A stretch of DNA of 64,000 nt from Tetramitus jugosus. Its lineage: Eukaryota > Heterolobosea > Eutetramitea > Acrasida > Vahlkampfiidae. Both the position numbers and the translations under genes were made by a program. The notes below the pieces were generated by a model. It made no database searches, had not been told where the DNA came from, and saw nothing but the letters and a program-made list of their open reading frames with translations. Of the stretch, positions 7,510-50,541 are shown in pieces. Location of the stretch: the NCBI GenBank assembly GCA_937625935.1, contig OW569350.1, positions 310,001-374,000 of the forward strand, in the 5' to 3' direction. Every line of letters begins with the position of its first letter. Position 1 is the first letter of the stretch.

Positions 7510-7582
7510 TACCGACGACGGGACTCGAACCCGCGACCACTGGATTAGAAGTCCAGTGCTCTTCCAGCTGAGCTACGACGGC
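7510..7582 (-). tRNA. tRNA-Arg (anticodon TCT)
   Basis: The minus strand folds as a 73-nt tRNA. The acceptor is GCCGTCG with one T-T mismatch, the D arm GCTC/GAGC, the anticodon stem CTGGA/TCCAG with loop CTTCTAA (anticodon TCT, decoding AGA), and the T loop TTCGAGT. A T4 pol III terminator follows at 7505-7508 (read on the minus strand). The 5' end faces the retrotransposon remnant at 7633-7887. Confidence 0.93.
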
Positions 7583-7632
7583 TAGATGTTTAGGAAGATA
7601 GGGCATTTATTTTATGCGTGAGCCTGCGATCC

Positions 7633-7887
7633 AGGGAAAGAACCTATCACTACGATACTTGGTTTGATAAAGCAGTGGTGCAATGGAAAACGAAATTAAC
7701 GAGCAGAGAAAGATAGGCAAAAACTATTTGCTAGGAATGTTAGGCGTAGAAACTCAAGCTGTTAAACAAGTGGCCAAAGGGTTCAAGAAGGAGGTAGTCA
7801 AGATGAAAGCTAAGCAGCTTGTGGACAACACTTTGTGTAAAGAGAAGGGACAATAAACAGCGCAACCACTGTTTGTTTTAAAAAACA
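7633..7887 (+). mobile_element. Degenerate 3' end of a LINE-type retrotransposon upstream of tRNA-Arg
   Basis: Frame 3 from about 7651 encodes DTWFDKAVVQW. After a frame change near 7690, frame 1 encodes a peptide containing NYLLGMLGVET that ends at the TAA near 7853. Both match, in order, the end of the retrotransposon ORFs at 48.3-50.4 kb (WFDKVVFRNG and EYLSGMMGIES; WFDNQRWSNG and EYMLGMLGIET). The element ends with the family tail (CAACCACTGTTTGTTTT, then A6). The 5' junction is not defined exactly; it lies within 68 bp of the tRNA-Arg 5' end. No target duplication is visible, which fits an old copy. Confidence 0.75.
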
Positions 7888-7962
7888 TCCGTTAGACTAA
7901 GGTAGTTACTGAACAAGCCTCCCAGGTTTAGGTGTACTGGGATGCTATAACCTAGCAAGCAA

Positions 7963-8015
7963 TCCTCTGGTCGCATTAAACAATACAACGCTCGCGCCGT
8001 CGTCGGTACTTTTTT
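7963..8015 (+). pseudogene. Relic 3' half of a tRNA-Arg in inverted orientation
   Basis: Bases 7997-8013 (CCGTCGTCGGTACTTTT) are identical to the acceptor end, discriminator region and T-run of the tRNA-Arg at 7510-7582, but on the opposite strand. Just upstream, AATCCTCTGGTCGC resembles its anticodon 3' stem and variable region (AATCCAGTGGTCGC). The T arm is not recognisable. This looks like a decayed inverted duplicate, with the LINE remnant between the two copies. Confidence 0.6.
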
Positions 8016-8201
8016 GGTTCAATACTTTTCTAACAATAGAGACTCTGTCTGAATTCAGTTCATGGTATAAAATGGAGCTGAAAATGTCAGTGGTTCGAAC
8101 CTTTCCAACAAAAAACTTGATCAGGACTGCTCGCAATACATTGTATCTATCTGCCACCTCTCCATCACATTTCAGACCAGGACTGAACACATGATTTGAA
8201 A

Positions 8202-8591
8202 ATGGAACAGCAACCACCGTCAGTAGTTGAACAAACTGTGGAACCAAGCGGACATAAACGATTTGGACTGCGGCACAAACTGTCCGAAAAGCTGCATCTC
8301 AAGAAGAACAGATCAGCAGTCACTGACAGTTGCGACAAGGAAAAGAAACAACATACCTCGATTTTGAAAAAGATTGCATCTCATGTGCACCACCATCACC
8401 ACTCTGAAGACAACACTCATGAGAATGTAGCTTCGAGGCGGAATGGGTCATTGAAATCGAACGAAACAGAGGAAGTATCGACAAGCGATTCGTCTCCGTT
8501 AGCAGTCATGGCACACCATGTGGAACTTGTCCAAAGAAATCCAGAGTGCCAGGAAATGATACAACAACTAGAGTCGTATTCGTTCCCTTAA
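8202..8591 (+). CDS. Small basic hypothetical protein
   Basis: The frame encodes 129 residues from the ATG at 8202; two codons further upstream start only with TTG. The N-terminal half is rich in Lys, Arg and Gln, there is a run of five histidines near the middle, and the C-terminal third is acidic and Ser-rich. No domain, signal peptide or membrane segment is recognisable. The stop is followed immediately by AATAAA, as in other genes of this window, which supports a real gene. It sits between the tRNA-Arg and tRNA-Ile loci. Function is unknown. Confidence 0.55.
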   Translation: MEQQPPSVVEQTVEPSGHKRFGLRHKLSEKLHLKKNRSAVTDSCDKEKKQHTSILKKIASHVHHHHHSEDNTHENVASRRNGSLKSNETEEVSTSDSSPLAVMAHHVELVQRNPECQEMIQQLESYSFP

Positions 8592-8613
8592 AATAAATGA
8601 AATTTAAAAAGTG

Positions 8614-8686
8614 TGGTCGTTGCAGGGATCGAACCTGCGACCAATGGCTTATTAGACCAACGCTCTACCGACTGAGCTAAACGACC
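8614..8686 (-). tRNA. tRNA-Ile (anticodon AAT)
   Basis: The minus strand gives a 73-nt tRNA with acceptor stem GGTCGTT/AACGACC, D arm GCTC/GAGC, anticodon stem TTGGT/GCCAA, loop CTAATAA (anticodon AAT, decoding ATT) and T arm GCAGG-TTCGATC-CCTGC. A T5 terminator follows at 8606-8610. A retrotransposon fragment with a clear target duplication starts 61 bp upstream of its 5' end. Confidence 0.96.
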
Positions 8687-8759
8687 TTCTATATTTAGGT
8701 TGAATATCATAGTGGGAAAATTACTATTTTTAGACGGGAAATGAATTCGACGGGAGCAG

Positions 8760-8906
8760 TGGACAACACCAAGAGGAGGTGTGTGGAGGTGATGCATACC
8801 CTCTTCCCAAGCTCCAAGAACATGGCAACAAAAATAAATTAACAGTAAAGAGAAGAGAAAGAATAAACAGCTCTACCAACCGGTTGTATTAAAAAAACAA
8901 AATTTA
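8760..8906 (+). mobile_element. 5'-truncated LINE fragment with 12-bp target duplication, upstream of tRNA-Ile
   Basis: The insert starts within the last codons of the LINE ORF (VDNTKRRCVEVMHTLF), matching VDHTKRRCVEVMRRLF in the inner element copy near 49.66 kb, and stops at TAA. A short 3' UTR and the family tail (CAACCGGTTGTATT then A7) follow. It is flanked by direct repeats CGACGGGAGCAG at 8748-8759 and 8907-8918. A 3'-end fragment with an A tail and target duplications is the hallmark of target-primed reverse transcription. Confidence 0.9.
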
Positions 8907-9058
8907 CGACGGGAGCAGGGTAGTGTCTTGCTTTTTCATCATGTTGCTTGTACTGTTGTCCAAGCGCTTTTCAAAGTTTCAGAGTGCCCTCATCTAGAGG
9001 AGGGGAGTTTCTTCGAAGTGTCCCGAAGAACACAAACAAACATAAAAACTTTCAGAAC

Positions 9059-10900
9059 ATGACAACAACAGAGAAACTCAACCATTCTCATCATCCTGAT
9101 TTACTATGTCAATTACCCACCGAGAACAAACTACTCATTCTCAATTTTCTCATCGTCTTTTTCGATTATCCAACAACCAATCACAACAACAATAATAATA
9201 ATAATAATAATACTGATGATGATGATGTTGTGAGTGCCACAGACATCCCTCATACTACAACAACAAAAAATCTTGATCCATTCATGCAACACAATGCTCA
9301 ATTCTGCAATGAACCATTCCTCTTTAACAACATTCAATCTCTCATTCGACTCTCCATGGTCAACTCTCATTGGCATCAATTGATGTTGAGCAGTCGGATG
9401 AATCGATTGTGGAAATGTTGTCTGTACGGTATGACCCAACAAAAATCATTGATTAAACAATTGACTCGAACATGTAAACAACAACAAAAGAATGTCAATG
9501 TGTCAATCTTGTTGAAAAATGAGTGCGTCAAGCAATGGTTTTCATTGTGTTATTGTGAAAATAGACAAAGGGAATTGACACTGTGTTTGGAATCGTGTTT
9601 TCCATTGGACAGTGCACCAATGTATCAAAAAAAGAAGCCCATGGTGTTGCGAAGGTGCAAACAATTGTTAATGACCGATAAAAGATTGAAATCTCACTTG
9701 GATATTGGTGAAAATAGTGGAAGTGAAGAAAATGATAAGAGTGAAAATGATAATGTGCTTGAGAGTGCACCCAGTGTTCACTCTAGTGCATTGACCTTGT
9801 TTTGTCAATTGTTTTGGAAGTATTGCAGAATACCGCGATTGCGACATGAACCACAAAAGCAGCGGCAGTATTCATGGTGGTTACTACGCGATTTGTTGTC
9901 ATTGTTTGTCGAGTGTGGTATTCACATTTATGAATCATTTGAGTTTGAGCAATTGGGAAGTCCGTTGAATGCGGATATGGTTCGATTTTGTTTCTTTTCA
10001 GCATTGAATGTGGTCAATGCAGACGACGGAGAAGGATTGGCAGTACCTGTGTCAACCATTTTGATTTTGTGCTTGCATGATGATCGAAACATGGAAAACG
10101 AGTTGTTGATGCACTTTGTGTCATTGTTGAGTGAACGTGAAATGGATTTGGCACTGAGAAGAACAGAAAAGATTGTAGATATGCCATTGGAAGCATATGT
10201 TGGCTTTCGATTGGATCCTGGGGCATTGTCATGTTTGGCACCTCATATTAGCCAATTTAGAAAATCAGTACCTGAGCCCTATTCGCTCGCAGGTCTGGGC
10301 AACAAGTTCTTGTCCATGTTTTTCTCTCAGTTGAACATTGGATCGCCCACCAATTTCAAATCGATAATTAAAACCATGGTGCAGTACTGTCAACTCGATC
10401 TGAATGAAAAGGTGATGGCAGGTGATGATTTTTTACTTCGGTGGTTCAGCTATTGGAGAAACTCAGAATCGTCGCTACAAATCGATCACTTTATGCTCGA
10501 TATAGTACTATTTCTGGTGAATGAGATGAAGATGGACATTGGAACGACGAATGACGCAGGGAATACGATCATGCACTATCTGGTGCGAGAGAACCCAGCT
10601 TTCCATGCTGTTTCTCCCCTGTTTACAAATGGTAAACTTCGACCGCATATGATTCAATTACTCAGCAAGGAAAACACTAAGAATCGCATCCCAATCGAAG
10701 AACACTTGGAATACATCAAGAAATTGCCTCCCATCACGCGGTCACTCGATCTAGATTATCGCATCTTGCGCATTCTGTGTGAATACACGGATCCAAAAGT
10801 GTGCAAACAACGTAAGATTGCACCTCAGATTATCAATATCCTCAAGGACAAAAATGTCAGCACCACCTTACAACAACAATTGACAAGTAAAATGACCTAA
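9059..10900 (+). CDS. F-box-like protein with a possible ankyrin-like repeat
   Basis: The protein has 613 residues from ATG 9059; the open frame extends upstream only from a TTG. An F-box-like region is split by a poly-Asn insert: LPTENKLLILNFL near residues 20-32, then LIRLSMVNSHWHQLM near 95-110, with the typical Leu-Pro start and Ser/Trp spacing. The middle is Leu-rich and helical. Near 490-500, NDAGNTIMHYL resembles the start of an ankyrin repeat. F-box proteins usually present substrates to SCF ubiquitin ligases; that role is inferred. The next gene starts only 34 bp after the stop. Confidence 0.6.
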   Translation: MTTTEKLNHSHHPDLLCQLPTENKLLILNFLIVFFDYPTTNHNNNNNNNNNTDDDDVVSATDIPHTTTTKNLDPFMQHNAQFCNEPFLFNNIQSLIRLSMVNSHWHQLMLSSRMNRLWKCCLYGMTQQKSLIKQLTRTCKQQQKNVNVSILLKNECVKQWFSLCYCENRQRELTLCLESCFPLDSAPMYQKKKPMVLRRCKQLLMTDKRLKSHLDIGENSGSEENDKSENDNVLESAPSVHSSALTLFCQLFWKYCRIPRLRHEPQKQRQYSWWLLRDLLSLFVECGIHIYESFEFEQLGSPLNADMVRFCFFSALNVVNADDGEGLAVPVSTILILCLHDDRNMENELLMHFVSLLSEREMDLALRRTEKIVDMPLEAYVGFRLDPGALSCLAPHISQFRKSVPEPYSLAGLGNKFLSMFFSQLNIGSPTNFKSIIKTMVQYCQLDLNEKVMAGDDFLLRWFSYWRNSESSLQIDHFMLDIVLFLVNEMKMDIGTTNDAGNTIMHYLVRENPAFHAVSPLFTNGKLRPHMIQLLSKENTKNRIPIEEHLEYIKKLPPITRSLDLDYRILRILCEYTDPKVCKQRKIAPQIINILKDKNVSTTLQQQLTSKMT

Positions 10901-10934
10901 GCAAATACCGTAAAACATCGGAAAATCACCCTGC

Positions 10935-13433
10935 ATGACATTTCGCATTTTTTTTTGCCAGCGTTTCCGGAGAGAAGAACAAAGCACAACTGAAACAACA
11001 GGAAGACACATGTGCATTCAATCAAGCATCACCAAATATGTAATCTGTTATGAGACAGTACAATCATACATATCCTACTCTATTCTCCTCCGAGTGTACA
11101 ACAAGTACAGTTGGATCATTGAAAAAAGATATGCTGATTTTATTCAACTGTACTCGTCACTCAAAACAACACTGAAAATGATGGAGGGAGGAGAGCACGT
11201 GCTACAACACAAGCTCAACACATTTCCACCAAAGCTTCTCTACCGTAACATGAACGAGAAGGGATTGGAGCAACGAAAGTTTCAATTGGAAGCTTGGCTC
11301 AATTGCGTATTGGAGGACAATTTGTGTCAATCGTTGGTATGTGTTCAAGATTGGTTGCAAGTGCCCGATTCAGTGTCGATCGATCGTCAACAAGCTCAAA
11401 TTCATTGGAATCAGCGCTTGTATGAACAAACAGAGAATGAGCAGCAACGTCTGGATGCTCTTGTTGAAAAATTGAAGCTAAAGTGGAGTCATGTGTTTCC
11501 ATCGCCGAATCAAATCATGCATCAATCTACAATGGAGCGCATGGTTGAACTGCATTCGCGAGAGTATTGGGTGCAATACTTGTTGGGCATGAATCATTTG
11601 AGGCCATTTTTGAACAGAAATGGAACCATTAATTTGCATTTTGTAATGATTGTTCCACCATTGAATGACAATAGTAATTTAAGTTATGATAATAGTAGCG
11701 ATAGTAAGAGTACGAGTAATAGTTTGACTCTGTTCCATAGTGCGATACAAATTGGACCGTTTGTCATACAGTGGAACTGTGATTCATTGGTTTCGATTCA
11801 ACACTATGAATTGATGAAGAACTCGATTATTTCATCGACAAAAATTGCATCGATACCGATGCATAGAGCCAACAGAACGGTGGAAGACAATTATGATATG
11901 CACTCCTTGTTGAATTGCATTTGTTTTTATACGTTGTCAGCGCAGTTTGATTCACGCCATTGCAATGATCACGATTTTGTCAATGATTGCTTGTCTGTAC
12001 TTGGAATTGATCTGGAGGATTCGATTGGATCATACAAGAAGAGTAGATTGTATCAATCGTTGGAAAATACGCCCTATTTGTATCGATATCTCGTATGGTT
12101 GAAGCATCCGCTTGAATATATTAATCTTCGAAAAGAGGAAGAAACAAACGCAGGGTCGACAACCATGGGCGATTTAACTTTTCCGTTCGAACAACACCAG
12201 GATCTAGATATATTAGTGAATACGATCGTAGGAAACCTGTACTATAAAACAGAGGACACAGACCATGCTGAAGCATTGAAAATGTTTTGTGATGAATTTC
12301 CTCTCGAATACAGTATTTTGTGTGCTATTGATAACGCTATGTGGATAAATCATTTGAGTAACGATGCTTCGACCAATAGTGAGCCACTGTGCATGTACAC
12401 TGATTGCATATGTCCATTCCATTACGGCAGAAAGGGAACAAATCCAATGAGTGTCACGAGTCCACTACAGCATCATGTATTTACGCACAACACGACAAAT
12501 ATTGACTATAACCAATCTCATGCACGAATATTGAGTCTATGTGGTTGTGGTATGAGAAGTTACTATATTCTGTTGATGTTGAAGAAACTGGAACAAGTAA
12601 CTGGTAGAAAAACGAGAGACCTGTTTGACTTGGTTGTGGGATCACAGCTCAGTTCAATCATTGCTGTAGGTATCTACTTGGGAACGCCGATTGATGATCT
12701 GATTGATATGTTTGTTCACTTCTCAGACAATATATTTATGAACAAGGTATCTGAAGATCCATTGGTGAGTCAAAAGCGATTGGAGAATGTCATTGCGGCC
12801 ACGATTCTGAACGGTAATGTGAATGCAGTTTTGGTAGATAACGGATTCAAGTGTCAAGTAGCTCTAGTCTCCTCTCGTTATGATCGATGCTTGCATACCT
12901 CTACGTGCGTATTCACCTCCTATCCTGCCAATAGCAGGCACTATTGCTACACTGTTAAAACAAATGCTCCTATTTTGTCCGCACTAAGAGCATGCTGTGC
13001 TATCCCAGGTTATTTCGAACCAGTCGTACGAGGTGATACCTCTTATCAATCCAGTGACCAATTTCTGGATCCGTCTGAAATTGCTCTCTGCGAGTCGAAT
13101 AGACTCTTTCCGAACAGAAAAGTAGCCATGTTGACGTTGGGTGTCAAACTGTCATCCAGCACTGATGACGAGGACGCTTCCAAGGAATCTGAACGCAACT
13201 CACTTCATGGATTAACTCTTGTTGATGAACAGAGTAACCAGACGCACCAAAATGTTCAACACTGGCTATCTCTATCACCAAAGAAGCCCATCCGATATTA
13301 TCGATTTGCACCTGATGATGCAAGCAACGGTGAAACGAGTCCAGATGTAATACAATTGCGAACACAAGTATATCTATCGAGAGAGGAAGAACCTTTCGCA
13401 TCAATGTGTGAGAGTATGTTCCAACATAAATAA
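10935..13433 (+). CDS. PX-domain protein with a catalytically degenerate patatin-like domain
   Basis: The protein has 832 residues. An N-terminal PX domain (about 35-145) is shown by EKRYADFIQLYSSLK, then FPPKLLYRNM and QRKFQLEAWLNCVLED; PX domains bind phosphoinositides. From about residue 530 the fold-defining patatin pattern appears as ILSLCGCGMRSYY, then LFDLVVGSQLSSIIAVG. In active patatin/iPLA2 enzymes these positions read DGGG and GxSxG. Here the oxyanion loop is CGCG, the nucleophile elbow is GSQLS with no Ser at the central position, and the catalytic Asp motif (DGG) reads DPS near 711. It is probably a phospholipase-like pseudoenzyme on endosomal membranes. The start is uncertain; the next in-frame Met is residue 26. 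Confidence 0.75.
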   Translation: MTFRIFFCQRFRREEQSTTETTGRHMCIQSSITKYVICYETVQSYISYSILLRVYNKYSWIIEKRYADFIQLYSSLKTTLKMMEGGEHVLQHKLNTFPPKLLYRNMNEKGLEQRKFQLEAWLNCVLEDNLCQSLVCVQDWLQVPDSVSIDRQQAQIHWNQRLYEQTENEQQRLDALVEKLKLKWSHVFPSPNQIMHQSTMERMVELHSREYWVQYLLGMNHLRPFLNRNGTINLHFVMIVPPLNDNSNLSYDNSSDSKSTSNSLTLFHSAIQIGPFVIQWNCDSLVSIQHYELMKNSIISSTKIASIPMHRANRTVEDNYDMHSLLNCICFYTLSAQFDSRHCNDHDFVNDCLSVLGIDLEDSIGSYKKSRLYQSLENTPYLYRYLVWLKHPLEYINLRKEEETNAGSTTMGDLTFPFEQHQDLDILVNTIVGNLYYKTEDTDHAEALKMFCDEFPLEYSILCAIDNAMWINHLSNDASTNSEPLCMYTDCICPFHYGRKGTNPMSVTSPLQHHVFTHNTTNIDYNQSHARILSLCGCGMRSYYILLMLKKLEQVTGRKTRDLFDLVVGSQLSSIIAVGIYLGTPIDDLIDMFVHFSDNIFMNKVSEDPLVSQKRLENVIAATILNGNVNAVLVDNGFKCQVALVSSRYDRCLHTSTCVFTSYPANSRHYCYTVKTNAPILSALRACCAIPGYFEPVVRGDTSYQSSDQFLDPSEIALCESNRLFPNRKVAMLTLGVKLSSSTDDEDASKESERNSLHGLTLVDEQSNQTHQNVQHWLSLSPKKPIRYYRFAPDDASNGETSPDVIQLRTQVYLSREEEPFASMCESMFQHK

Positions 13434-13502
13434 TTATTGTCCTACCTCAGAAAAGATACAATGTACATTTTTGCTTTGTTCAATCAAAAGTCCCTCTAGT
13501 CT

Positions 13503-14402
13503 TTAATTGTCTGTAAACTTTGGTGTACGCTTCTCAGAGAAAGCACTCATTCCTTCCTTTTGATCCTTTGTGGCAAAAGTGGACTGGAATGTTCTCTTTT
13601 CCAAGTTCAATCCCTCAGCCAAAGTAGTCTCAAATGCCTTATTGACAGTCATCTTGGCCAATTGAGTAATTGGACCAGAGTAGGATGCAATGGTGGATGC
13701 CATATCCAAAGCAGTCTTCACCAACTCGTCAGCTGGAACGACTCTTGACACCAAACCAGCCTTCTCTGCCTCTTCAGCAGAGTACATGTTGCCAGTCAAA
13801 TTCCACTCCATTGCCTTTGCCTTTCCAATAGCTCTTGTCAATCTCTGAGTACCACCAATTCCAGGAATGGTGGCCAATTTGATCTCTGGTTGACCAAACT
13901 TTGCCTTATCACCAGCAATAATAATATCGCACATCATTGCAAGTTCACAGCCACCTCCCAATGCATAACCATTGACAGCCGCGATAATAGGCTTCTTTGT
14001 TTGTGGAATCACATCCAAATCACCAAACAAATTCGTCTTGTACACATCAGTAAAGTTCAACACTTGCATCTCCTTGATATCTGCACCGGCAGCAAATGCC
14101 TTATCACTTCCAGTGAGAACAGTGACACGAACAGAGTCATCATTCTCAATCTGTTGGAACACTTGACCCAATTCCTTGCAAAGACTTCTGTTGAGTGCGT
14201 TCAATGCCTTTGGTCTGTTCAATCTCACGATTGCGACACCATTCTCCTGCTTTTCAAACAACAAATTTTCAAATGAAGAAAAGTGAGGGACATTGGTGGA
14301 GAAGTGAGAGGATTGGAAGGTAGTGGTCATAGCTCTTGTCTTGCTAGCAGAAGCAGAGGAAGAGAGGAGTGGTCTAGAGTATCTGGCAAATGAAGAGATC
14401 AT
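13503..14402 (-). CDS. ECHS1: Mitochondrial short-chain enoyl-CoA hydratase
   Basis: This 299-residue crotonase-family protein carries a Ser/Arg-rich mitochondrial presequence (starting MISSFARYSRPLLSSS). The fold motifs are present: AFAAGADIKEM (oxyanion hole), GYALGGGCELAMMCD with the first catalytic Glu, and FGQPEIKLATIPGIGG with the second. It hydrates trans-2-enoyl-CoA to 3-hydroxyacyl-CoA in mitochondrial beta-oxidation and branched amino-acid breakdown. An in-frame ATG exists 39 codons upstream (14519), but that stretch is Asn/Lys-rich and would hide the presequence, so 14402 is preferred. It converges with the PX/patatin gene. Confidence 0.95.
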   Translation of the reverse strand: MISSFARYSRPLLSSSASASKTRAMTTTFQSSHFSTNVPHFSSFENLLFEKQENGVAIVRLNRPKALNALNRSLCKELGQVFQQIENDDSVRVTVLTGSDKAFAAGADIKEMQVLNFTDVYKTNLFGDLDVIPQTKKPIIAAVNGYALGGGCELAMMCDIIIAGDKAKFGQPEIKLATIPGIGGTQRLTRAIGKAKAMEWNLTGNMYSAEEAEKAGLVSRVVPADELVKTALDMASTIASYSGPITQLAKMTVNKAFETTLAEGLNLEKRTFQSTFATKDQKEGMSAFSEKRTPKFTDN

Positions 14403-14865
14403 TGTTTGTTGGGGTGATGTTTGATTGTTTGATTTTTTGTTGTTGGTGTTTTTGATTTTTTTGTTGGCCGCAAGATCAGAGAAAGCTTTTTTTGCCGCTC
14501 GATCGTAGTGAGATGTCATTTGAGTTGAGAAACATCATGTTTTCTGTTGTTGTTGGCCCATACTTCATAATGTATCCAATTTGTTGGTTAAATATTGGAA
14601 ACACGCGTTAATGGACAGAAACCCAAACGTCATTGTTCAGGTAGCTCCCCTTCCTTTGGTTGTGCGCAACTTGGTCATGTTTTGTTGTTTCGTCATCCGT
14701 TGATGCATTTCATAGCGGTCAATTAGATGGATGTCATTTTTTTGCTTGAACATTGAAAGTTCAATGAAAGGGTCAACCAAAAAATGGTCAACTCACAATT
14801 TTGACAAAAATTCACTAAAACAAAACTTCGCACAACAAAAGTCATAACATTCATAGCCATATACA
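14403..14865. promoter_or_regulatory. Divergent intergenic region between ECHS1 and RPL9
   Basis: These 463 bp hold the 5' flanks of two divergent genes. Apart from the possible N-terminal extension of ECHS1 (to 14519), I see AT-rich, CAA/TTG-rich sequence typical of 5' leaders here, and no tRNA, repeat or further ORF. Confidence 0.4.
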
Positions 14866-15638
14866 ATGAAATCCATTAACCAACAAAAGTCTATCCAAAT
14901 TCCAGAAGGAGGTGAGTTCATTTTCACATTTCACTCTTCTCACCATCAATCAAAGGGACCAACGTTTTTGCAGTGTCATCTTGTCCGTCATTGTTGCAAT
15001 CGTGAGGCTTCTTTGCCTCGAAATCACTGTGTGTCTTTCAAACGCAAATTCCTTGTTCCCTTTGATCGATGGTATTTTTGCGCAAACTTTTTATTAACTC
15101 TATTTTTTCAGTCGAGGTTTCTGTCAAGAACAGAGTCGTCATCGTTAAGGGCCCAAGAGGTGTCTTGAAGAAGGACATCAAGCACATCCATCTTGATATT
15201 CACCAAGACAAGGTCGCTAGAACCATGACCGTTGAAGCATGGCACGGAGACAGAAAGAAGAACGCTCAAGTCAATCTTGTCTGCAGTTTGGTTGAGAACC
15301 TCATCACTGGTGTCCAAAAGGGATACAGACACAAGATGAAGTTTGTCTATGCGCATTTCCCTGTGAACTGTGTCATTACTCCAGACAACAAGACCATTGA
15401 AATCAGAAATTTCTTGGGCGAGAAGTACGTTAGAAGAGTCACAATGTTGGAAGGTGTCACCGTCTCCCTGACTGGTCAAAAGGATGAGATCCAAATTGAA
15501 GGTAACGATTTGGAGAAGGTTTCCCAATCCGCTGCAAACATTCACTGCGCTACTCTTGTCAGAAACAAGGATATCAGAAAGTTCTTGGACGGTATCTATG
15601 TTCACAAGAAGGAACACATTGTTGCTGATGAAGAATAA
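14866..15638 (+). CDS. RPL9: 60S ribosomal protein L9 (uL6), two exons
   Basis: Exon 1 (14866-14911) encodes MKSINQQKSIQIPEG. A 200-nt intron (14912-15111, GTGAGT...TTTTCAG) follows, then exon 2 (15112-15638). The spliced 190-residue protein begins IQIPEGVEVSVKNRVVIVKG, which aligns with the uL6 N-terminus, and continues with GPRGVLKKD and the conserved FLGEKYVRRV region. It is a large-subunit protein near the sarcin-ricin loop. An intron very close to the start codon is common in ribosomal protein genes. AATAAA overlaps the stop codon (GAATAAAC). Confidence 0.97.
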
Positions 15639-15700
15639 ACATTGTAAGGCTACACAATAAAACTAAAATTGCTTTATTTTTGAACGAGCATCAATATTTT

Positions 15701-16465: not shown

Positions 16466-16686
16466 GATGACGATCGCAAATAGTAATAGAATCGATTATC
16501 CAACTCTTGGTTGATTGTTGTTTTTCTGCTGCTTTGTTTGATCAACAACAAACGATGGTAGGAGAGATTGAATGTTCAAGTCGGAGAATGTGGGAAAACT
16601 TCCCACCAAAAGAAAACAAAAAAAAATTCACACACAAAACAAAATTTCAGATTGACCAGTCAGGGACCGACCACTCACAACAAAAG

Positions 16687-27983: not shown

Positions 27984-28034
27984 TAAATATGATTTCCTAG
28001 GTCTTACAATAAGAAGAATCAGTGAGTTGTTTGT

Positions 28035-38698: not shown

Positions 38699-38826
38699 GA
38701 CTTCTAGAAACAATCAAAATGCAAAAACACCGAATTATTGTCGGAGGAAATATCGGGGTAAAAAAGAAAAATAGCTTTCCCGCCTCCAAAACGCAAACAA
38801 CATCACCATTTTCCACCACAACCACC

Positions 38827-42677: not shown

Positions 42678-43104
42678 GGTAATGGATGAACAATCAATCG
42701 AGTAGTAGTTGTGGTGGTAGATGTGATGTTGTTGAGTCTTTTCGAAGTCAGAATTCTCATGATTAAGAACATGGTGGAAGCAAGTGTCCCGAATCGCAGT
42801 CGAGTTTGAGTGAGGACACAACAAACAAATTTGATGGGCTAAATAGAGCCCCTGTAGGTTGTCAAAGCCTGCTAGAGCCGTTCTGTTGTCGAAGTTTGAC
42901 GAATCCCTATTCGTTCATATACTATAAAAAGTGCGAACCTGAATCCCCCTGGAGCACAAAAAACGACTCACCCAACAAACGAAAGGACGCGCCAACAACA
43001 AAAATCATGATTCGCTAAAGTCTGAATGGGATTCGGGTTTCCATTTTCTCACCTGAAACGAAAGTGGGAATAATTTATTGTCTCTTAGTTGATGTGCGTT
43101 TCGT

Positions 43105-45375
43105 TTAGCATGGCAAGTCTTCAGGCTCGCATGATACGAATGCTTCGCATGCATAGAAGGCAGGCAAACCAAGATGGTTCAGAATGTCTGCAGTTTGAGT
43201 GTTTCTGTCCTGAGCACGCTCATAAAACTCTCTTGGATCATTGCCTGGGTACAGGGCAGTGTGCTTTTGAGATTGATGCATGTAGATGCTTTGAATCTTT
43301 GTGTTCATTTCAGCTCTGCTCATTGGCAAGAAGACATGAGTCTCATGTGGTTCAAACTCTTGCCATGCGCCTCTGTACAGCCAAACCTTCATCTTTCCTT
43401 CAGTGTGTTCATTGCGCTTCTCCGCAGGATACAACTCCTCCAGTGCTTGCTTAATAGCAAAGTAGCAACATCTGTGAGTACCGTGCGGATCAGTCAAATC
43501 TGCGGCAACAAAAATATGCTTTGGATTCTCCTTGATCAACAGATCCTTCACCATTTCGACGTCCTTGTGCGACAATGGATTCTTTTCGACCTTTCCAGTA
43601 TGGTAGAATGGCAAGTCCAAAAAGATGCAGTCTCTGTCACCGTTCATACCCAACTTTTCAACAGCGTTCATTGCTTCAGATCTTCTGATGTTACCCTTCA
43701 ACTTTTGTCTGACTTCAGAGTCGACGAATTCAGAGTTGTTTGCGTTGGATTCTCTGTCAGGACCGAACAATGTCTGATCAATCAAGTGCTGCAAGTTGAG
43801 CTTGAGACCATCAGGTGTCACATATTCAGTTGCCATCAAGTTTGCAAATCGCAAGTGATATCTCAAGACATTGTCAGCAACAGCAACAGAACCGTTGGTC
43901 ATGTACACAGCTCTAATACCACAATCGACACTGCTGTCATTAGCAAGGTTTGGATTCTGTTCCTTGAGGGCCTGTCTTCTCACCTTGACCAATCGACTCA
44001 TCAATCCTCCCATACAAATGACATCATCATCTGGATGAGGAGAGAAGATCAATACCTTTTCTGATGGATCACAAGGAATCAACTGCTTTTGATTCTTTTG
44101 CAGTGTAATTCTTCCGAGCAAGTTCTCAAAAATTTCTCTGCACAGAGAATCAATTTCACCTCGACTGTAGATGATGAGCGACGATAGCTCATGCTCATAA
44201 AAATCATTTTCGGTCAAATCGCAAATTGGCTTCTTTGAGTGCAGAGCACAGTAGATGATGGCCTTCTTTCTGTGCTCAAAATTGGACCAAAATTGATTCA
44301 AGTCTTGATCAGGTCCCAGTGCGATCCATGGACATTGAACACGCTTCAAGCTCAAACCAGCAGCCTCATCCACATAGAAGGTAGCATTCTTGTGAATTCT
44401 GAGGAATGCAGCAGGACATTCGGAGGGACTAGACAACTTATCTTCCAAAGCCTTCTTCACAATGGCCATCTTGTTCTCACCTGTTGCAATCAAAATAATT
44501 TCTCTGCAGTCCATCACAGTTCCCGTTCCCATTGTAATGGCCTTGTGAGGAACATTGACCTCTCCACCAAAAGCAGATGCAGCATCAACACCTATTCAGA
44601 TTATTCAGTCAATAATTAACACAAACAGAAATGATAAATTAGTTATCCTCCTACTAGAGAGAAGAAGAGGAAGTGGGAAGAAAGAGAGACACATACGAGT
44701 GGTGTTGTGCAAAGCAACCATTCTAGTTCTATCGGACAATAGACTTGGTGGTTCATTGAATCCAATGTGTCCTGTTCTACCAATACCAACCAATGCCAAA
44801 TCAATGCCACCAAAGGATTGAATCTTTGCTTCATAATCCAAACAGAATGCCTCTACTTGATCAATTGGCAATGTACCATCAGGAATATGAATGTTTTCTC
44901 TTGGGATGTCAACATGCTTGAAGAATGTGTCATTCATAAACTTGTGATACGAGTTTTTGTCTGTTGGTGGCATTGGATAATACCTACAAACAACAACAAG
45001 TTAGCGGATGACGCCAAAAAAAAATTCATCATGTTAGCTTTCATCACAACACAGTAACAACCAACTGAACAACAATATCAACAAACAAGCAAAGAAAGCT
45101 AATAAGCTAAAAAATACTTACTCATCAAGATTGAATGTAATGACATTGTAGAATGAGAGACCTTCTTCCTTGTGCAATCGAATCAACTCTCTGTATGTGC
45201 TCACAGGTGTGCTACCAGTTGGCAAACACAACACAACCTTCTCATTCTTGGCTTGTCTGTCGCGAATCAGTGTTGCAACACGCAAAGCAACAGCTTTGGC
45301 GATATCAGATGGAGACTTGTAAATGAGAACGTTCTTGGAGGTGTAGTTGATTTGGTTCAGAGCTGAGATGTCCAT
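43105..45375 (-). CDS. Glucosamine-6-phosphate deaminase fused to PIG-L/LmbE-type deacetylase, three exons
   Basis: Exons (minus strand) are 45375-45122, 44983-44697 and 44591-43105, joined by GT-AG introns of 138 and 105 nt; the joins restore FNLDEYYPM and [12 protein letters not shown]. The product has 675 residues. The first ~265 are NagB-like ([34 protein letters not shown]), which converts glucosamine-6-P to fructose-6-P and ammonia. From about 360, [17 protein letters not shown] is the Zn-binding motif of the PIG-L/LmbE deacetylase family. The same two-domain order is known from bacterial NagB-like proteins, so one polypeptide may both deacetylate and deaminate an amino sugar. Two introns and normal composition argue against recent transfer. 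Confidence 0.88.
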
Positions 45376-45646
45376 TCCTGCAAAGTGAAGATGATGATTT
45401 TTGGTTGTTTGAGGGTGTTCGGTTTTTTTTCACAAGGTTTTCCGGCGGAATATCCAACGCTTGATCAAATGTGAAGTGGGCCTGGAATTTTTCATGTGAA
45501 ACGTCATTGACGGCATAGAACAGGAGCAATCACCCACGTACTTTTTCTGGCGTTCCTGTCACTTTTAACTTTTCTTCCTCTTGGTGTTGCACGAACCGTG
45601 TCCAGATAATCTTTTCTGGGCTAGGAGATTACAAAATGGAAAGCAG
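45376..45646. other. Intergenic leader of the NagB-PIG-L gene
   Basis: These 271 bp contain the 5' flank of the minus-strand NagB-PIG-L gene. On the minus strand a pyrimidine-poor stretch ends in TTTGCAG, 2 bp before the ATG, which could be the acceptor of a 5'-UTR intron. Nothing else is recognisable. Confidence 0.3.
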
Positions 45647-45742
45647 GACGTATAGCTTAGAGGCAGAGCGAAGGATCAGGGGTTGCTTGCCAACGTCGCA
45701 TCCAACATTATCCTTAGACGTGTGTTCGACTCGCACTGTGTC
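45647..45742 (+). ncRNA. tRNA-like pol III unit with oversized anticodon loop
   Basis: The sequence folds as a cloverleaf: acceptor GGACGTA/TGTGTCC, D arm GCTT/GAGC, anticodon stem AAGGA/TCCTT and T arm GTGTG-TTCGACT-CGCAC. Box A (TAGCTTAGAGG) and box B (GTTCGACTC) match the pol III consensus, and a T4 run follows. The anticodon loop is 35 nt, as if it held a 28-nt intron. If spliced at the usual site it would give AGG with C rather than U at position 33, which is very unusual. It is therefore more likely a tRNA-derived SINE head or a pseudo-tRNA than a working tRNA. Confidence 0.55.
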
Positions 45743-45919
45743 CTGTTTTGCCTTAATCCCTTCGGTCCAGCAAGAACAAAAGGCTTTTAAGGCAATTTTC
45801 TTGGCTTTAATGGATGGCTAGGTGTGGATACCCCTCCTATTCACCCGTTCACGAATGTCTTGCTTTCTTTTCCGCCGCAACGTGGTGCGTGAGCACCATT
45901 TGTTGTATTAAAAAAAACA
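45743..45919 (+). mobile_element. SINE body or short LINE remnant ending in the family tail
   Basis: The stretch runs from the T-run of the tRNA-like unit to CACCATTTGTTGTATT plus A8, the same 3' tail motif as the LINE copies (consensus near CAACCANTGGTTGTNTT-An). A small hairpin (TGGTGC/GCACCA) precedes the tail. With the tRNA-like head it could be a SINE borrowing the LINE 3' end. No target duplication is visible. Confidence 0.5.
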
Positions 45920-45978
45920 ACCGATTCTCCAGGCCATTGGTGATGTCTTGAACGGCGTCTGCATCCAGGACATACAGG

Positions 45979-46010
45979 TTTTTTTAATACAACCAGAGCA
46001 GTTGCGACGC
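45979..46010 (-). mobile_element. 3' tail of an older LINE/SINE copy
   Basis: Read on the minus strand, GCAACTGCTCTGGTTGTATT plus A7 is another copy of the family tail. Its upstream part was separated from it by the later LINE insertion, whose target duplication begins at 46011; the continuation resumes after 50441. Confidence 0.5.
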
Positions 46011-46026
46011 TCGCACAGGTCTGAGG
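46011..46026. repeat. Target-site duplication of the outer LINE, left copy
   Basis: TCGCACAGGTCTGAGG here is repeated exactly at 50426-50441, flanking the outer LINE directly at its A tail (46027 onward). Confidence 0.9.
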
Positions 46027-46221
46027 TTTTTTTTTTTTAAAACAACACGTAGTTGCTCACTTTATTGTGTATCATTCTTTCAAATAGTAGGGACTTTTTA
46101 ACTTTCAGTATTTTCCGTTCAGTTCCGTGTCCACCAGAGACAACCGGAAATTCCAGTAAAGTTTCGGTTCAGATCATCGTTTTTAAGTTTCAGGCGGAAT
46201 CTGAAAGTAAATTTGCTTTTA

Positions 46222-47250
46222 TTAAAAACTTGGTTCAAAGTAGCCCCAATCTCTCTTCAGATTGTACATACCGAGTGCAATAAAGATACAGGCCAACAAA
46301 CGGCGATCCCCATGATAGAACGAGTCTTCTTTGTTCACTGATCTGCATATCTTGAAATGGGCGTTCATATTTTCGATAATGACTTGCTCTCGCCTTGATA
46401 AAACATCGAATACACGTTGATCGTTGGTCTTTACCTGGCAAGGCTTGAAGCCGGGGACAACATAGCAAATGCCATAAAATCCTGGATCAGCAAGAGCGAA
46501 GGTATCACCATCGAGGATGTATTTGAAGAAATGGTTGTATGTTGCTGCGAGTGCATCATGAACACGTCCTGGTATCATGGTAACGAAGGCAACTACTCTG
46601 CCAGTGAAGTCTAGTAAAATTTGTGTTGATCTTCCATGCATATGATAGTGCCCATTGTATTGCACGCTTTGACGGGATCTTGGTCTTCTTGTTCTATGAA
46701 TGGTGTTGTCGATTACACATTTGATTTGAGGATGTAAACGACTGTGTTCGTCCGTGATGATTGCATTAGGAATATACTGACAAAAATACTCCACCAATCT
46801 TGGTAAGATTTCATCTAACACTTTCGTCACATAGCCTACAGAAACATTGAAAATAAAGGCAAGGTGTTTGTTTCCTTTGTATTGTATGACAAAGTGCAAC
46901 CCCATCAACACCTTGTTCTCAAATGAGAGCAACAGAGAGGAATCAATCAGTTCTTTTCTATGCTTCTCCATTCCATTAACAATCAAATCAAATTCGCTAT
47001 GGGTGATGAATAGGTATTCCTTAAACAAACTTGGTCGTTGGACAAATCTCTTGTAGACGTTATTATGCTTTAGTGTTTGTCTCTTTCTTTTGACTACTCC
47101 TCTGCCCATTCCTTTGTTGGTTAGTAACGCTTCCATCTCCCATCGAAAGGGGTAATCGATATGACTCTCAAAATTCAAAAAATTAACGTATGAAGGCAAA
47201 GTAAATCGATTGACACTGCGACATGTCGAATTCATCATGAGAGGAACCAT
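46222..47250 (-). CDS. PIF/Harbinger DDE transposase
   Basis: The protein has 342 residues from the ATG at 47250. A helical N-terminal part is followed by a DDE_Tnp_4-type catalytic core. The three acidic residues are visible in CVIDNTIHRTR (first Asp), FALADPGFYG (second Asp) and QVIIENMNAHFK (Glu); PGRVHD corresponds to the conserved PGSxHD motif between them. It is expected to cut and insert the element together with the Myb-like protein. The start codon overlaps the stop of the upstream ORF by one base (TGATG on the minus strand). HARBI1-type domesticated genes share the fold, but the terminal repeats mark this one as a transposon. Confidence 0.92.
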   Translation of the reverse strand: MVPLMMNSTCRSVNRFTLPSYVNFLNFESHIDYPFRWEMEALLTNKGMGRGVVKRKRQTLKHNNVYKRFVQRPSLFKEYLFITHSEFDLIVNGMEKHRKELIDSSLLLSFENKVLMGLHFVIQYKGNKHLAFIFNVSVGYVTKVLDEILPRLVEYFCQYIPNAIITDEHSRLHPQIKCVIDNTIHRTRRPRSRQSVQYNGHYHMHGRSTQILLDFTGRVVAFVTMIPGRVHDALAATYNHFFKYILDGDTFALADPGFYGICYVVPGFKPCQVKTNDQRVFDVLSRREQVIIENMNAHFKICRSVNKEDSFYHGDRRLLACIFIALGMYNLKRDWGYFEPSF

Positions 47251-48146
47251 CAATTGGGGATATCGTTTTTTGATTGATTTGATTTCATCATATTCATTAT
47301 ATTCATCATCATCATCGTTTGCATTTGTCGATGCTCTCTTTCCTCTCTTAATAGTTGTTGCTGTTGCTGTTGCTGTTGTTCTTGCATTTTCAGCATCATG
47401 ACCATGAGCATATGGTGCATATCACTTCTGTCTTTTCTTTCTTCTCTCTGTTCTCTAATATCATTCAAAACTTCCCGATGTTGTTTCTCTTTCTGACGAA
47501 TTCGGTTGTTTCTGACTGCTTCCTTTCTGGTCATCTCATTTCCTCGTTCAGTGTAATCTTGTGAGGATGATATTTCGTCAGATTGAACAGTGTCAGCAAG
47601 TTGTTCCTCATCATAGCGATGCATATCCTCAGATCGTGGAGACAAAGTATGTTCAGATCTTGCATAGTTTTGAGAGCCATTTTCGACCTCCCGTTCCTCT
47701 TCATTTTCAAAGTTGTCGATCAGTTCCTCAGTATCCTCGCGTTCAGCATTCCTTGAGATTGTATCAACGATAGAAGCTCTCAACTTGGTACCTGATTTTG
47801 GATTCAAATGTCTATTTTTCTTAGTTCTCACATACTCAACATGATTCTTCAGATTCTTTTCGTCTCTCTTCAAAGCCTGAACTTTTTTGTCCTGCATTAT
47901 TGCTCTCCAATTGCCTTTGTAGTAAATGTATGCATCAACGATTACTTGTGATTCTTCAGTAGTCAAATTCTTCTTCCTTTTTCTTGCAGAAGTTGATGCA
48001 GGAGAAGGAGGTTCCTTCCTCTTTTGTGGTGTGGTTTGTGATGCTGATTGACTGTGTCTGGTATTGTACCTTTGACCTTGGCCTTCATCACTTGGATCTC
48101 CAAGTGATGGTGATGGTGGTGGTGATTGGGTGTGGTCGTCTGTCAT
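47250..48146 (-). CDS. Myb/SANT-like DNA-binding protein of the Harbinger element
   Basis: The protein has 298 residues. A Ser/Pro-rich N-terminus with a basic patch (ARKRKKNLTTEE) leads into a Myb/SANT-like helical domain near 62-115 (VIVDAYIYYKGNWRAIMQDK, with a conserved Trp). The C-terminal half is charged and coiled-coil-like, with a Gln run and Met-rich end. In PIF/Harbinger elements this partner helps nuclear import and binding of terminal sequences by the transposase. Its stop overlaps the transposase ATG. Confidence 0.85.
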   Translation of the reverse strand: MTDDHTQSPPPSPSLGDPSDEGQGQRYNTRHSQSASQTTPQKRKEPPSPASTSARKRKKNLTTEESQVIVDAYIYYKGNWRAIMQDKKVQALKRDEKNLKNHVEYVRTKKNRHLNPKSGTKLRASIVDTISRNAEREDTEELIDNFENEEEREVENGSQNYARSEHTLSPRSEDMHRYDEEQLADTVQSDEISSSQDYTERGNEMTRKEAVRNNRIRQKEKQHREVLNDIREQREERKDRSDMHHMLMVMMLKMQEQQQQQQQQLLREEREHRQMQTMMMMNIMNMMKSNQSKNDIPN

Positions 48147-48299
48147 CTTGGTTGTTTTTTTATTTGAACAGAAGCCCTTTTTATTCAGATAACTTTCAGA
48201 TTACGTGGCCTCCGGAAAGTTAAAAAACGTTTACAAGTTTTCCTTTCCGTTCCGAAGAACTCCGTGGGTAAAAAGTCCCTAGTTTCTCTTATTCTCACT

Positions 48300-48358
48300 G
48301 TGCCGCTCGAAGAGCGGCACTTATCTTTCCTTTCAGTGACGCTCGGAGAGCGTTACTG
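48300..48358 (-). other. Paired 3'-UTR hairpins of the outer LINE
   Basis: There are two stem-loops just after the LINE stop codon (read on the minus strand). The first is 48334-48358 (11 positions per arm, one mismatch, triloop TCC). The second is 48300-48320 (perfect 9-bp stem GTGCCGCTC/GAGCGGCAC, triloop TTC). The inner LINE copy has the same arrangement with different stem sequences. Confidence 0.8.
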
Positions 48359-49475
48359 CTGTTTGTAGTCTTTTGATTGCTGGTAGAGTGTGTGCAAAGT
48401 AGCGATGCAGCGACTCTTTACCCAACTAACAAAGCTTCGTGCCTTGCGATGGGCTAGTTCTAACTTCATTCCATTCTTCACCAATGCATCCACAACTTCG
48501 TCAAGAGCTTCACTCTCAATGCCCATCATTCCGGAGAGGTACTCCCGACTGGTCTTCCGGGATCTCGGGAGAAGTACCCCGTTTCTGAAAACTACCTTGT
48601 CAAACCACAAATTCACAGTCGACCCTCGATGCAATGGGAGTCTGAGCAGTTTGTTATAAACTTCCAACACAAGTTTTCGACGAGCATCGATTGCACACTT
48701 GCACCTGATCAGACAGTGAATGATGGTTTCGGACTCAGTGCCGCACCTTGGACACTGATCCGGTTTGTCATCATCATACAAATCATTACACACTGCTCTA
48801 GTATGTAATGTGCCGCTTCTGATCTGTGCATGGAACCATTCCAATTGACGATCTATCACAAAGGGGTTCTTGAAAAACTCGAATTGGTTCTTGTGCTCCA
48901 TTGCGGCAGATTGCAACCACCACTCTGGATATTGATCAATTGTGGCCTTTCGTTCCCTGAAGATCATTTCTTTAAGGTCATCTCGACCTCTGGCGTATTG
49001 TCCATTACATCGGATTATTTGCATAAACCCCTTTGAGGGATGTAAATCCTTACTCATACATTCTGGCATTGCCTTGACAGCGACTATCAACTCCTGATAA
49101 GTCTTTAGGCCGAATCCTCTGCCGATCTCAGTTTTTAGTGCCTCGAAACTTCTAACTTCGCCATCTTGCAGTAGTTGTTGCTTCTGATAGAGTCCCGCTC
49201 TGCTCAGTAACCTCAATTGTCGTGTTGTAAGGTAATTTGACAAATTACACCCCTCGCAACGACTATGAGAGTCATCAGTGATGATAATTCCTCTCTTGTG
49301 CAATCTAACAGCACACCATTTCATAAAGGAGTGTTTGACGCAGTTGATTCTGTGGTCCAATTGGAAGACGTTCTCCAATTGGAACGTGTATTGTTGCTTG
49401 ATATACTCAAGTGAGTCGTACCACAGAATCCTAGCATCCTCATCTCTCTTCCCTCTCATCATAGCCTTCACAAAC
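48353..49475 (-). pseudogene. C-terminal part of LINE ORF (zinc-knuckle region), 5'-truncated
   Basis: An open frame of about 374 codons ends at 48353. It lacks the endonuclease and reverse transcriptase domains and keeps only the region after them, including a CCHC zinc knuckle (CPRCGTESETIIHCLIRC, spacing C-x2-C-x8-H-x4-C) as in other LINE ORF2 C-termini. Beyond 49475 the frame continues on the other side of the inner LINE insertion (50415-50429). The first in-frame initiator-like codon is a GTG at 49471, so it is a truncated fragment and not a working gene. The frame itself has no internal stop. Confidence 0.82.
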
Positions 49476-49490
49476 AGTGCTGTGCGTCGC
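49476..49490. repeat. Target-site duplication of the inner LINE, left copy
   Basis: AGTGCTGTGCGTCGC here is repeated exactly at 50415-50429 and directly abuts the A/T tail of the inner LINE. Confidence 0.92.
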
Positions 49491-49572
49491 TTTTTTTTTT
49501 TTTTTTTTATTTTTTAAATACAACCATTGGTTGCTCATTTTACTTCTTTGTTGATTCTCTGTATCGGTTTCG

Positions 49573-49635
49573 TGACGGCAGAATGCCGTCATTATTGATT
49601 CAAGTAGTTGCTAATGCTCGTAGAGCATTAGCAAC
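49573..49635 (-). other. Paired 3'-UTR hairpins of the inner LINE
   Basis: Hairpin 1 is 49607-49635 (perfect 13-bp stem, triloop TAC on the minus strand). Hairpin 2 is 49573-49591 (perfect 8-bp stem TGACGGCA/TGCCGTCA, triloop TTC). The first overlaps the stop codon of the ORF. Confidence 0.85.
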
Positions 49636-50414
49636 CAGCAATCTCCTTTGAACTCGTGAAGAGGCGTCGCATCACCTCCACACATCTCCTCTTTGTATGA
49701 TCGACAAATTGTTGGGCCTTCTCCCTTGCCTTCTTCTTCTCTATTTCACTCTTCGTCAGTCCTTTGATCACTTGTTTCAATACCCAACATGCCAAGCATG
49801 TATTCCTTGCTAGTTTTCCTCCGCTTATTGACTAGTAATGCGCCGTTGCTCCATCGTTGGTTGTCGAACCACATGTCTACTCTTTGGTCCTTGTGAAGAC
49901 CCATTTTACTCAGCTTGGTGGAAACTTCCTTCACCAACAGCTTTCTGGCCATTATCGCCACCGGGCATCTAACGAGACAATGTAACACCGTTTCCTGTTC
50001 AAATTTGCATTTGGGACATAGCGTATCCATGTCCACTACTCCATAGAGATGTTGGACAACGGCCTTAGTGTGAATTGTGTGACTTTTCACCTGAGCCACA
50101 AACCATTCCAGTGCACGGTCGACCCTGAAAGGGCATCTCATAAATTTAAAATCTACAGCACCTCCTAAACACTTAGAATGTATCCACCATACCTTCTCCT
50201 CTTTCACCCTATCCCTATGTCGTCGCAAGAAGACTCGCCACAACTGTTCCTTCTCTACGACCTCAAAACTATCATTGTACATTAACCTTGGGGTAGTGTC
50301 GGCTGAATGCTCGTGATTTCCATTGCACTGTAGCATTTCAAGGTCACTTGTCAAGTACTTGTATCTGCGAGAACTAATTCCAAAATTTCCATGCCTTTTG
50401 ACCAATTCGCTATG
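49628..50414 (-). pseudogene. Inner LINE ORF C-terminal fragment with one frameshift
   Basis: The fragment reads from 50414 through the zinc knuckle CPKCKFEQETVLHCLVRC to EYMLGMLGIET, then hits a premature stop at 49746. A one-base frame change restores the family end (QVIKGLTKSEIEKKKAREKA ... TKRRCVEVMRRLF) to a TAA at 49628-49630. The open frame appears to extend upstream of 50414, but that part is host DNA antisense to tRNA-Gly and is not part of the element. Confidence 0.82.
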
Positions 50415-50429
50415 AGTGCTGTGCGTCGC
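50415..50429. repeat. Target-site duplication of the inner LINE, right copy
   Basis: This exact copy of 49476-49490 marks the 5' junction of the inner LINE. It is also the first 15 bp of the outer LINE as now preserved. Confidence 0.92.
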
Positions 50430-50441
50430 ACAGGTCTGAGG
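50426..50441. repeat. Target-site duplication of the outer LINE, right copy
   Basis: This exact 16-bp copy of 46011-46026 ends 29 bp before the first base of tRNA-Gly. It overlaps by 4 bp (TCGC) the 15-bp duplication of the inner LINE. Confidence 0.9.
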
Positions 50442-50470
50442 CCTTTTTTCATTTTTTCTATATAATAACA

Positions 50471-50541
50471 GCATCTGTAGTGTAGGGGTATCATGCAGCG
50501 TTGCCATCGCTGCGACCCGGGTTCGAATCCCGGCAGATGCA
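50471..50541 (+). tRNA. tRNA-Gly (anticodon GCC)
   Basis: A 71-nt cloverleaf with acceptor GCATCTG/CAGATGC, anticodon stem CAGCG/CGCTG, loop TTGCCAT (anticodon GCC) and T arm CCGGG-TTCGAAT-CCCGG. A T5 terminator follows at 50543-50547. The outer LINE target duplication ends 29 bp upstream. Confidence 0.97.

Follow-up and report, generated by a model that had tools for sequence, protein, structure and literature searches.

The element TRE5-A of Dictyostelium discoideum integrates 40-54 bp upstream of transfer RNA (tRNA) genes in opposite orientation, with its 5′ end facing the tRNA, and 80.2% of tagged insertions lie within 47±3 bp. According to the passages of PMC5911963 and PMC5391098 from which these figures are taken, TRE5-A is also found at 5S genes at a distance of 37-42 bp, has an ORF1-only form (TRE5-A.2; ORF, open reading frame), occurs in tandems and occupies 24% of the tRNA genes. 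Here, a family of long interspersed nuclear elements (LINEs) with a similar location is described, starting from a stretch of 64,000 nucleotides, positions 310001-374000 of contig C7 of assembly G000 (a compact genome of 26.35 Mb in 56 contigs), hereafter called the window, in which 5′-truncated LINE copies stand upstream of tRNA genes.

Several other elements aimed at genes transcribed by RNA polymerase III (Pol III) are known, and the comparisons made throughout are based on excerpts of the published accounts. NLTR-B of Polysphondylium pallidum, which lies 39-64 bp upstream of tRNA genes as do the present LINEs, is described as not related to the TREs and so represents an earlier convergence. 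TRE3 of Dictyostelium is likewise a tRNA-associated LINE with an apurinic/apyrimidinic endonuclease (APE) and two ORFs, but it is located 40-150 bp downstream of the gene in the same orientation, whereas few downstream pieces were found here. Ty3, Tj1 and DGLT-A are retrotransposons directed to Pol III genes, in the case of Ty3 via TFIIIB, but they are long terminal repeat (LTR) elements with an integrase and insert at shorter distances, 1-4 bp from the transcription start site for Ty3 and 13-33 bp for DGLT-A. Dada elements share both tRNA and 5S targets, but are DNA transposons inserting inside the RNA gene. Targeting of tRNA genes originated repeatedly and independently within dictyostelids, as stated in a passage of PMC5006619, and the table excerpted from PMC5911963 lists LINE-type tRNA targeting in dictyostelid amoebae only. 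LINEs account for 0.25% of the N. lovaniensis genome (excerpt of PMC6125883); the excerpts of PMC6125883, PMC11702301 and PMC12344493 do not mention tRNA targeting, and no report of such targeting in Heterolobosea was among the matches listed in a search of the open-access literature.

Position of the elements relative to Pol III genes

The original prediction, made from three tRNA genes of the window, was a TRE5-like LINE that targets tRNA genes. Since three of three genes in one window are insufficient against chance, tests on wider samples were needed; these exclude chance and support the prediction by distance, orientation and target duplications. It is very probable that a LINE family with ORF1 and ORF2, together with ORF1-only relatives, integrates in a narrow zone upstream of Pol III genes, presumably via the Pol III complex. 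In the samples, the distance was nearly fixed and the orientation fixed, target duplications were present, insertion did not depend on which tRNA the gene encodes, 5S genes were hit as well, and an already duplicated site was used again. The 5S targets, the ORF1-only relatives with a shared target and the stacking at single sites were not part of the prediction.

The abundant ORF1-only relatives have the same target as the ORF2-bearing LINEs. Ranks 2-22 of the list of full-length ORF1-only copies, with the exception of rank 15 (a known 5S neighbour), were used as a sample (n=20), and in each copy the 260 bp preceding the ATG were inspected. This region contained an intact tRNA gene in 13 copies, a 5S gene in one, a decayed tRNA-Ile retaining 63 intact nucleotides in one and the tail of another element in five. 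In all 14 intact cases the ATG was located 61-75 nt from gene nucleotide 1 and the element lay on the strand opposite to the gene. The distance from the element 5′ end to gene nucleotide 1 in these 14 copies was 37-52 bp (median 48) with the T-run excluded, and 35-48 bp (median 43) with the T-run counted as element. The chance of obtaining 14 of 20 at that spacing is 1.5e-40, even with all 1593 and 772 loose tRNA and 5S candidates taken as genes to give the highest possible gene number. The ORF1-only copies are recent (93-99% identical to the query), and their ORF1 is apparently kept by selection, as judged from pN/pS values of 0.08-0.47 (uncorrected copy-to-copy counts within a family). One of the 35 full-length rows, C24:59922, is followed at 2.27 kb by a reverse transcriptase (RT) match of equal strand and may not be ORF1-only. 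A comparison of the ORF1-only rows with the 103 Pol III genes listed, made by coordinates, gave 15 pairs no more than 3 kb apart, 13 of them upstream and opposite and two downstream, and the rows within 150 bp were upstream on the opposite strand in 8/8 cases. At the 5S gene C20:343621 an element seemed to have inserted downstream, but this was rejected, as the element belongs to an intervening tRNA-Gln gene (L096).

For the ORF2-bearing LINEs, 38 search rows were taken as 35 copies after three short rows had been dropped, and the position of the gene was predicted from the LINE coordinates only. Inspection of 20 stretches of 600-700 bp revealed an intact tRNA gene in 14 (Leu, Glu, Val, Val, Gly, Leu, Asn, Ser, Thr, Leu, Pro, His, Trp and Val), in every case with its 5′ end facing the LINE 5′ end. 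Among the misses, L056 lay inside another LINE, L066 at an ORF1-only tail and L063 at a 35-nt tRNA-Gly relic, and L062 gave a T-rich tail-like match only. A second and a third batch yielded intact tRNA genes in 2/8 (Pro, Ala) and 1/5 (Gln) stretches. The ten misses of these batches comprised four stretches wholly within a LINE and four ending at the tail of another element; of the remaining two, L072 retains 18 nt from the 5′ part of a tRNA-Met gene behind the 5′ end motif of an ORF1-only element, and L070 has neither a gene nor a LINE. The tail at L082, one of these misses, was read by eye. Pooled, 22 of the 35 copies have an intact Pol III gene directly at their 5′ end, some of them (as C23 and C40) being assigned by coordinates and spacing only, four more are stacked behind a copy with a Pol III gene, and for no copy was a location away from Pol III genes demonstrated. 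L014 was rejected as a case without tRNA, because the copy sits at a 5S gene. Elements also stand before remnants of tRNAs, namely the relics at L063 and L072, the 63-nt Ile at L087 and a B-box-like motif read by eye at 7560-7660 of L011, as if tRNA targets decayed after insertion. Altogether, tRNA genes for 19 amino acids, all except Cys, are targeted.

From the side of the genes, 26 nuclear tRNA loci with 1.5-kb flanks were picked by RF00005 score alone (17 Ile, 5 Arg and 4 Lys). A LINE was located upstream on the opposite strand at a distance of at most 180 bp in 15/26 loci, as against 2/26 with downstream pieces plus one tRNA of the window, which differs from TRE3-like targeting. A match 729 bp from the L029 tRNA belongs to a neighbouring tRNA-Arg gene and was not counted. 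The 5S rRNA genes are targets as well: a listed element lies no more than 150 bp upstream of four of the 47 scored, L091 of the ORF1-only sample adds one element just upstream of a 5S gene, and the 5S gene of L014 carries two stacked LINEs with overlapping duplications at -51..-34. Rather than forming one tandem array, the 5S genes scored are scattered across many contigs.

Target duplications were scanned at 42 gene loci, which resulted in 21 candidate rows of at least 12 bp; two were dropped (L029, a duplicate of the Ile locus of the window, and one weak L018 row). The remaining 19 duplications at 15 genes are 12-21 bp long and adjoin A-rich tails. Seventeen lie within -57 to -28, the median of the proximal edge is -41, and the outliers are the Ile locus of the window (-73..-62) and L045 (-87..-72). 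In a control with mismatched flanks, in which different loci were paired, 4 rows of at least 12 bp occurred in 167 pairs, that is about 1.0 per 42 loci, so that one or two of the 19 duplications could be due to chance. At L018, one target site is present in three copies with elements between them. The check proposed with the original prediction, according to which copies should accumulate about 30 to 65 bp upstream and on a single strand, was run on the samples and agrees with the ORF1-only distances (37-52 bp, 14/14 opposite) and with the 17/19 duplications at -57 to -28. Copies scattered over the genome, which would have spoken against the prediction, were seen in none of the samples tested, and random scatter was rejected on the basis of the fixed distance and orientation.

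LINE copies in the window

For the three tRNA genes of the original prediction ARAGORN and Rfam agree, and the LINE pieces at all three are located upstream of the tRNA on the opposite strand, thus pointing away from it as had been described. The gene tRNA-Arg(TCT) at 7509..7582 (minus strand; RF00005, 68.8 bits) is accompanied by a 5′-truncated LINE at 7650..7885 (plus strand; ORF2 C-terminus 7695-7832, tail 7835-7885; tblastn, blastn and genome matches), the 5′ end of which lies about 70 bp upstream of the gene; the duplication scan of gene loci found no target duplication for this copy. Past its tail, at about 7990-8014 on the plus strand, an apparent match to the tRNA-Arg 3′ end followed by T6 was seen by eye, possibly a relic, for which blastn gave no match at E 0.01. 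At tRNA-Ile(AAT) (8613..8686, minus strand; ARAGORN, Rfam), the 5′-truncated LINE at 8759..8906 (plus strand; ORF2 C-terminus 8759-8827, tail 8845-8902) is flanked by exact copies of the duplication CGACGGGAGCAG at 8748..8759 (tRNA-proximal, -73..-62) and 8907..8918 (distal).

Upstream of tRNA-Gly(GCC) at 50471..50541 (plus strand; ARAGORN, Rfam), LINEs on the minus strand are stacked. The outer, older element (46027..49475, 5′-truncated; ORF2 homology 48368-49486, tail 46027-46064) is enclosed by exact copies of TCGCACAGGTCTGAGG at 46011..46026 (distal) and 50426..50441 (tRNA-proximal, -45..-30). The inner, newer element (49491..50414, 5′-truncated; ORF2 residues from about 1052, and tail) is enclosed by exact copies of AGTGCTGTGCGTCGC at 49476..49490 (distal) and 50415..50429 (tRNA-proximal, -56..-42). 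The duplications that had been noted at Ile and Gly were both located as exact copies. Because the inner duplication overlaps the gene-side end of the outer one, the newcomer inserted between tRNA-Gly and the older element, and stacking of this kind recurs at further loci. A short tail fragment at 45979..46011 (minus strand; blastn 85.7% over 35 columns) is probably a third LINE insertion of the stack.

The pieces had been assigned to one and the same LINE family. They are indeed related, but their identity to ORF2 of the full-length copy L013 (Arg 73%, Ile 91%, Gly inner 65-70%, Gly outer 38%) places them in different subfamilies. Likewise, the statement that every tRNA gene of the window has a LINE holds for Arg, Ile and Gly but not for a fourth, probably intron-bearing tRNA gene at 45646..45744 (plus strand; Rfam 44.9 bits, default ARAGORN run without call), upstream of which no LINE was detected.

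A number of results weigh against targeting upstream of Pol III genes. The fourth tRNA gene has, 131 bp downstream and on the identical strand, a tail fragment of a second ORF1-only family (45875..45920, plus strand; blastn 97.8% over 46 bp). At the 26 tRNA loci no LINE was detected in 11, and downstream LINE-like pieces occurred in two (a 3′ fragment at 161 bp in L042 and a weak ORF1-like match at 239 bp in L036). No listed element was found within 150 bp upstream of 43/47 scored 5S genes, the element lists being incomplete too, or near the two U6 genes found (n=2). The scored genes are 63 of 1593 tRNA candidates (53 nuclear tRNAs by RF00005 and ten further rows on C54 and C56, read as organelle) and 47 of 772 5S candidates. 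Twenty-six of the 42 scanned loci, many of them without a LINE or with an uncovered distal end, showed no duplication. L055, L069 and L070 had neither a Pol III gene nor a LINE, apparently due to a mis-estimated 5′ end; the copy to which L055 and L070 belong was afterwards resolved with L078. Finally, for nine of the 35 ORF2 copies no link to an intact Pol III gene was established: L063 with its relic, L011 with its motif, five in stacks whose head was not reached and two further copies.

The tail downstream of the fourth tRNA gene, together with L042, gives a hint of rare TRE3-like downstream insertions.

Proposed mechanism and alternative explanations

Integration would proceed by target-primed reverse transcription about 40-57 bp upstream of a Pol III gene, with the element 5′ end facing the gene 5′ end. 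The Pol III initiation complex, once assembled, would recruit the ORF1 and ORF2 proteins, the likeliest docking partner being TFIIIB, whose upstream edge would lie near the nick site. The endonuclease would nick the sense strand of the gene near position -41 and the opposite strand some 15 bp farther from the gene. Each newcomer would insert between the gene and older copies, and ORF1-only copies would borrow ORF2 in trans. 5S genes lack the A and B boxes of the tRNA type. Since insertion occurs at a common distance from 5S genes and from tRNA genes for 19 amino acids, and the Pol III initiation complex is what both have, docking to TFIIIB appears to be the most economical reading. Yeast TFIIIB is located at -40 to +5 on 5S genes (passage of PMC5391098), and its edge at -40 is close to the nick proposed for these LINEs. 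In the TRE5 mechanism, ORF1 binds TFIIIB and the B box is needed.

In L013, ORF2 comprises RVT_1 (2.7e-25) and Exo_endo_phos (2.2e-7) in a single ORF as determined with Pfam. With RT and APE, duplications of variable length, an A-rich tail and frequent 5′ truncation, the elements are APE-type non-LTR retrotransposons. An RNase H domain was not detected by Pfam in the L013 ORF2, which is listed as a difference from NLTR-B. For ORF1 no Pfam family was obtained at E 0.001, and models predict two RRM-like domains and a coiled coil, whereas ORF1 of TRE5-A is said to resemble no other ORF1 protein. The 5′ untranslated region (5′-UTR), from the 5′ end to the ATG, is 23 nt long in L013, and those ORF1-only copies that were read have one of about 23-27 nt; a modular TRE5-type 5′-UTR with a promoter (A-module) was not found, in contrast to TRE5-A with its A- and B-modules. 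A 5′-UTR this short would leave no room inside the element for a conventional upstream promoter, and expression may start from an internal downstream promoter or from the flanking Pol III platform.

A more extensive version, in which a LINE outside the L1 and TRE5 lineages independently acquired Pol III targeting of nearly single-base precision in Discoba and additionally captures a promoter, is put forward tentatively and appears rather doubtful as a whole. The TBP/TFIIIB platform of the Pol III gene would, on its antisense side, drive transcription of the element, only the newest, gene-adjacent copy would be expressed, older stacked copies would be silent, and ORF1 would act as the targeting subunit.

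The behaviour as such, with insertion about 50 bp upstream, facing 5′ ends and 5S genes among the targets, is TRE5-like and thus of a known kind, and the likeness to TRE5-A covers upstream distance, orientation, 5S use, ORF1 plus ORF2 with APE and RT, the ORF1-only derivative and tandems. On the other side stand a dictyostelid host as compared with a heterolobosean here (by similarity of one protein) and several diverged subfamilies with one common target. Descent from the dictyostelid TRE5 lineage, either vertical or horizontal and with inherited targeting, would account for the matching geometry, 5S use, ORF1-only partner and tandems, but is unlikely in view of the proteins. TRE5 belongs to the L1 clade (excerpt of the review PMC5911963), whereas the ORF2 RT matched R2 reverse transcriptases (1.1e-22; 3.8e-31 with a profile; solved structures) and no L1 RT at E values up to 10. 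A Coffea L1-type protein, used as control, matched the human L1 RT with 1.6e-39 and an R2-type RT with 1.6e-19. Among solved structures the RT therefore seems nearer to R2 than to L1, as judged by similarity search and not by a tree. Moreover, a protein search in which the best 8000 word-sharing candidates were scored gave 14 weak matches and one of 52%, and the few named ones are not from Dictyostelium. The R2 matches without an L1 RT match, unlike in the Coffea control, make convergence likely: the targeting would be convergent with that of TRE5, which was compared by clade description rather than by sequence, and the RT lineage independent. The 52% match, P0135, is a 682-aa protein of a 3.1-kb public contig, and it suggests that the LINE family exists elsewhere.

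If the endonuclease recognized the DNA upstream of tRNA genes itself, by a sequence motif, by its bending or by an open, T-rich state, Pol III factors would not be required. T runs are present in many target sites, and APE-type endonucleases have a weak sequence preference. We regard this as quite improbable, as no motif is obvious by eye in the duplicated sites (no motif search was run) and the tRNA genes for 19 amino acids and the 5S genes are struck at nearly equal distance. Random insertion followed by a purge of copies hitting genes, with tRNA flanks as safe gaps, would fit the gene-dense window with its long ORFs and the tolerance of tRNA flanks in other compact genomes (passage of PMC5006619). 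It is hardly tenable, since it leaves the zone of about 15 bp, the single orientation and the strong upstream bias unexplained, and recent ORF1-only copies follow the pattern too; purely selective survival was rejected on account of the narrow zone and the single orientation. Joint travel of tRNA and LINE by segmental duplication or tRNA transduction, suggested by the tRNA-Ile flanks of L028 and L042 that look alike by eye, has a negligible probability and was rejected, because the target duplications are situated between the tRNA gene and the LINE, spacers vary by locus and different tRNAs have one LINE subfamily.

Recruitment by the Pol III initiation complex is hence the preferred reading. 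As far as searched, novelty lies in the host lineage and in the RT lineage, which is probably independent, as well as in multiple subfamilies with one target in one genome, the abundant ORF1-only partners and the stacks at single genes. That such targeting recurs in a protist very remote from the dictyostelids suggests that LINEs can repeatedly dock at the upstream edge of the Pol III initiation complex, and a shared mechanism becomes testable by comparison of two distant hosts. The stacks, furthermore, preserve the order in time in which elements inserted at a given gene.

Other features

The host is assigned to the heteroloboseans by a single protein, a phosphate transporter encoded at 5833-7437, the top named matches of which are from Willaertia magna (43% identity) and Naegleria (42%); two further proteins are closer with 67 and 63% identity. 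The outer Gly LINE contains a DNA transposon at about 46088-48275 (DDE_Tnp_4; inverted ends AGGGACTTTTTA), which we take to be Harbinger/PIF-like. It has 8 rows in the genome, the others being at most 45% identical, and its use as a control for tRNA proximity was uninformative with 8 rows only and an incomplete tRNA list. Additional, mostly weak RVT_1 matches were found at C3:2089, C17:2337, C1:4436, C22:2739, C10:606104, C48:379851 and C9:603492; where known, these are at low coordinates or near contig ends and possibly represent a subtelomeric reverse transcriptase family. The tRNAs of C54 and C56 are located at identical coordinates, which points to a duplicated, probably mitochondrial contig.

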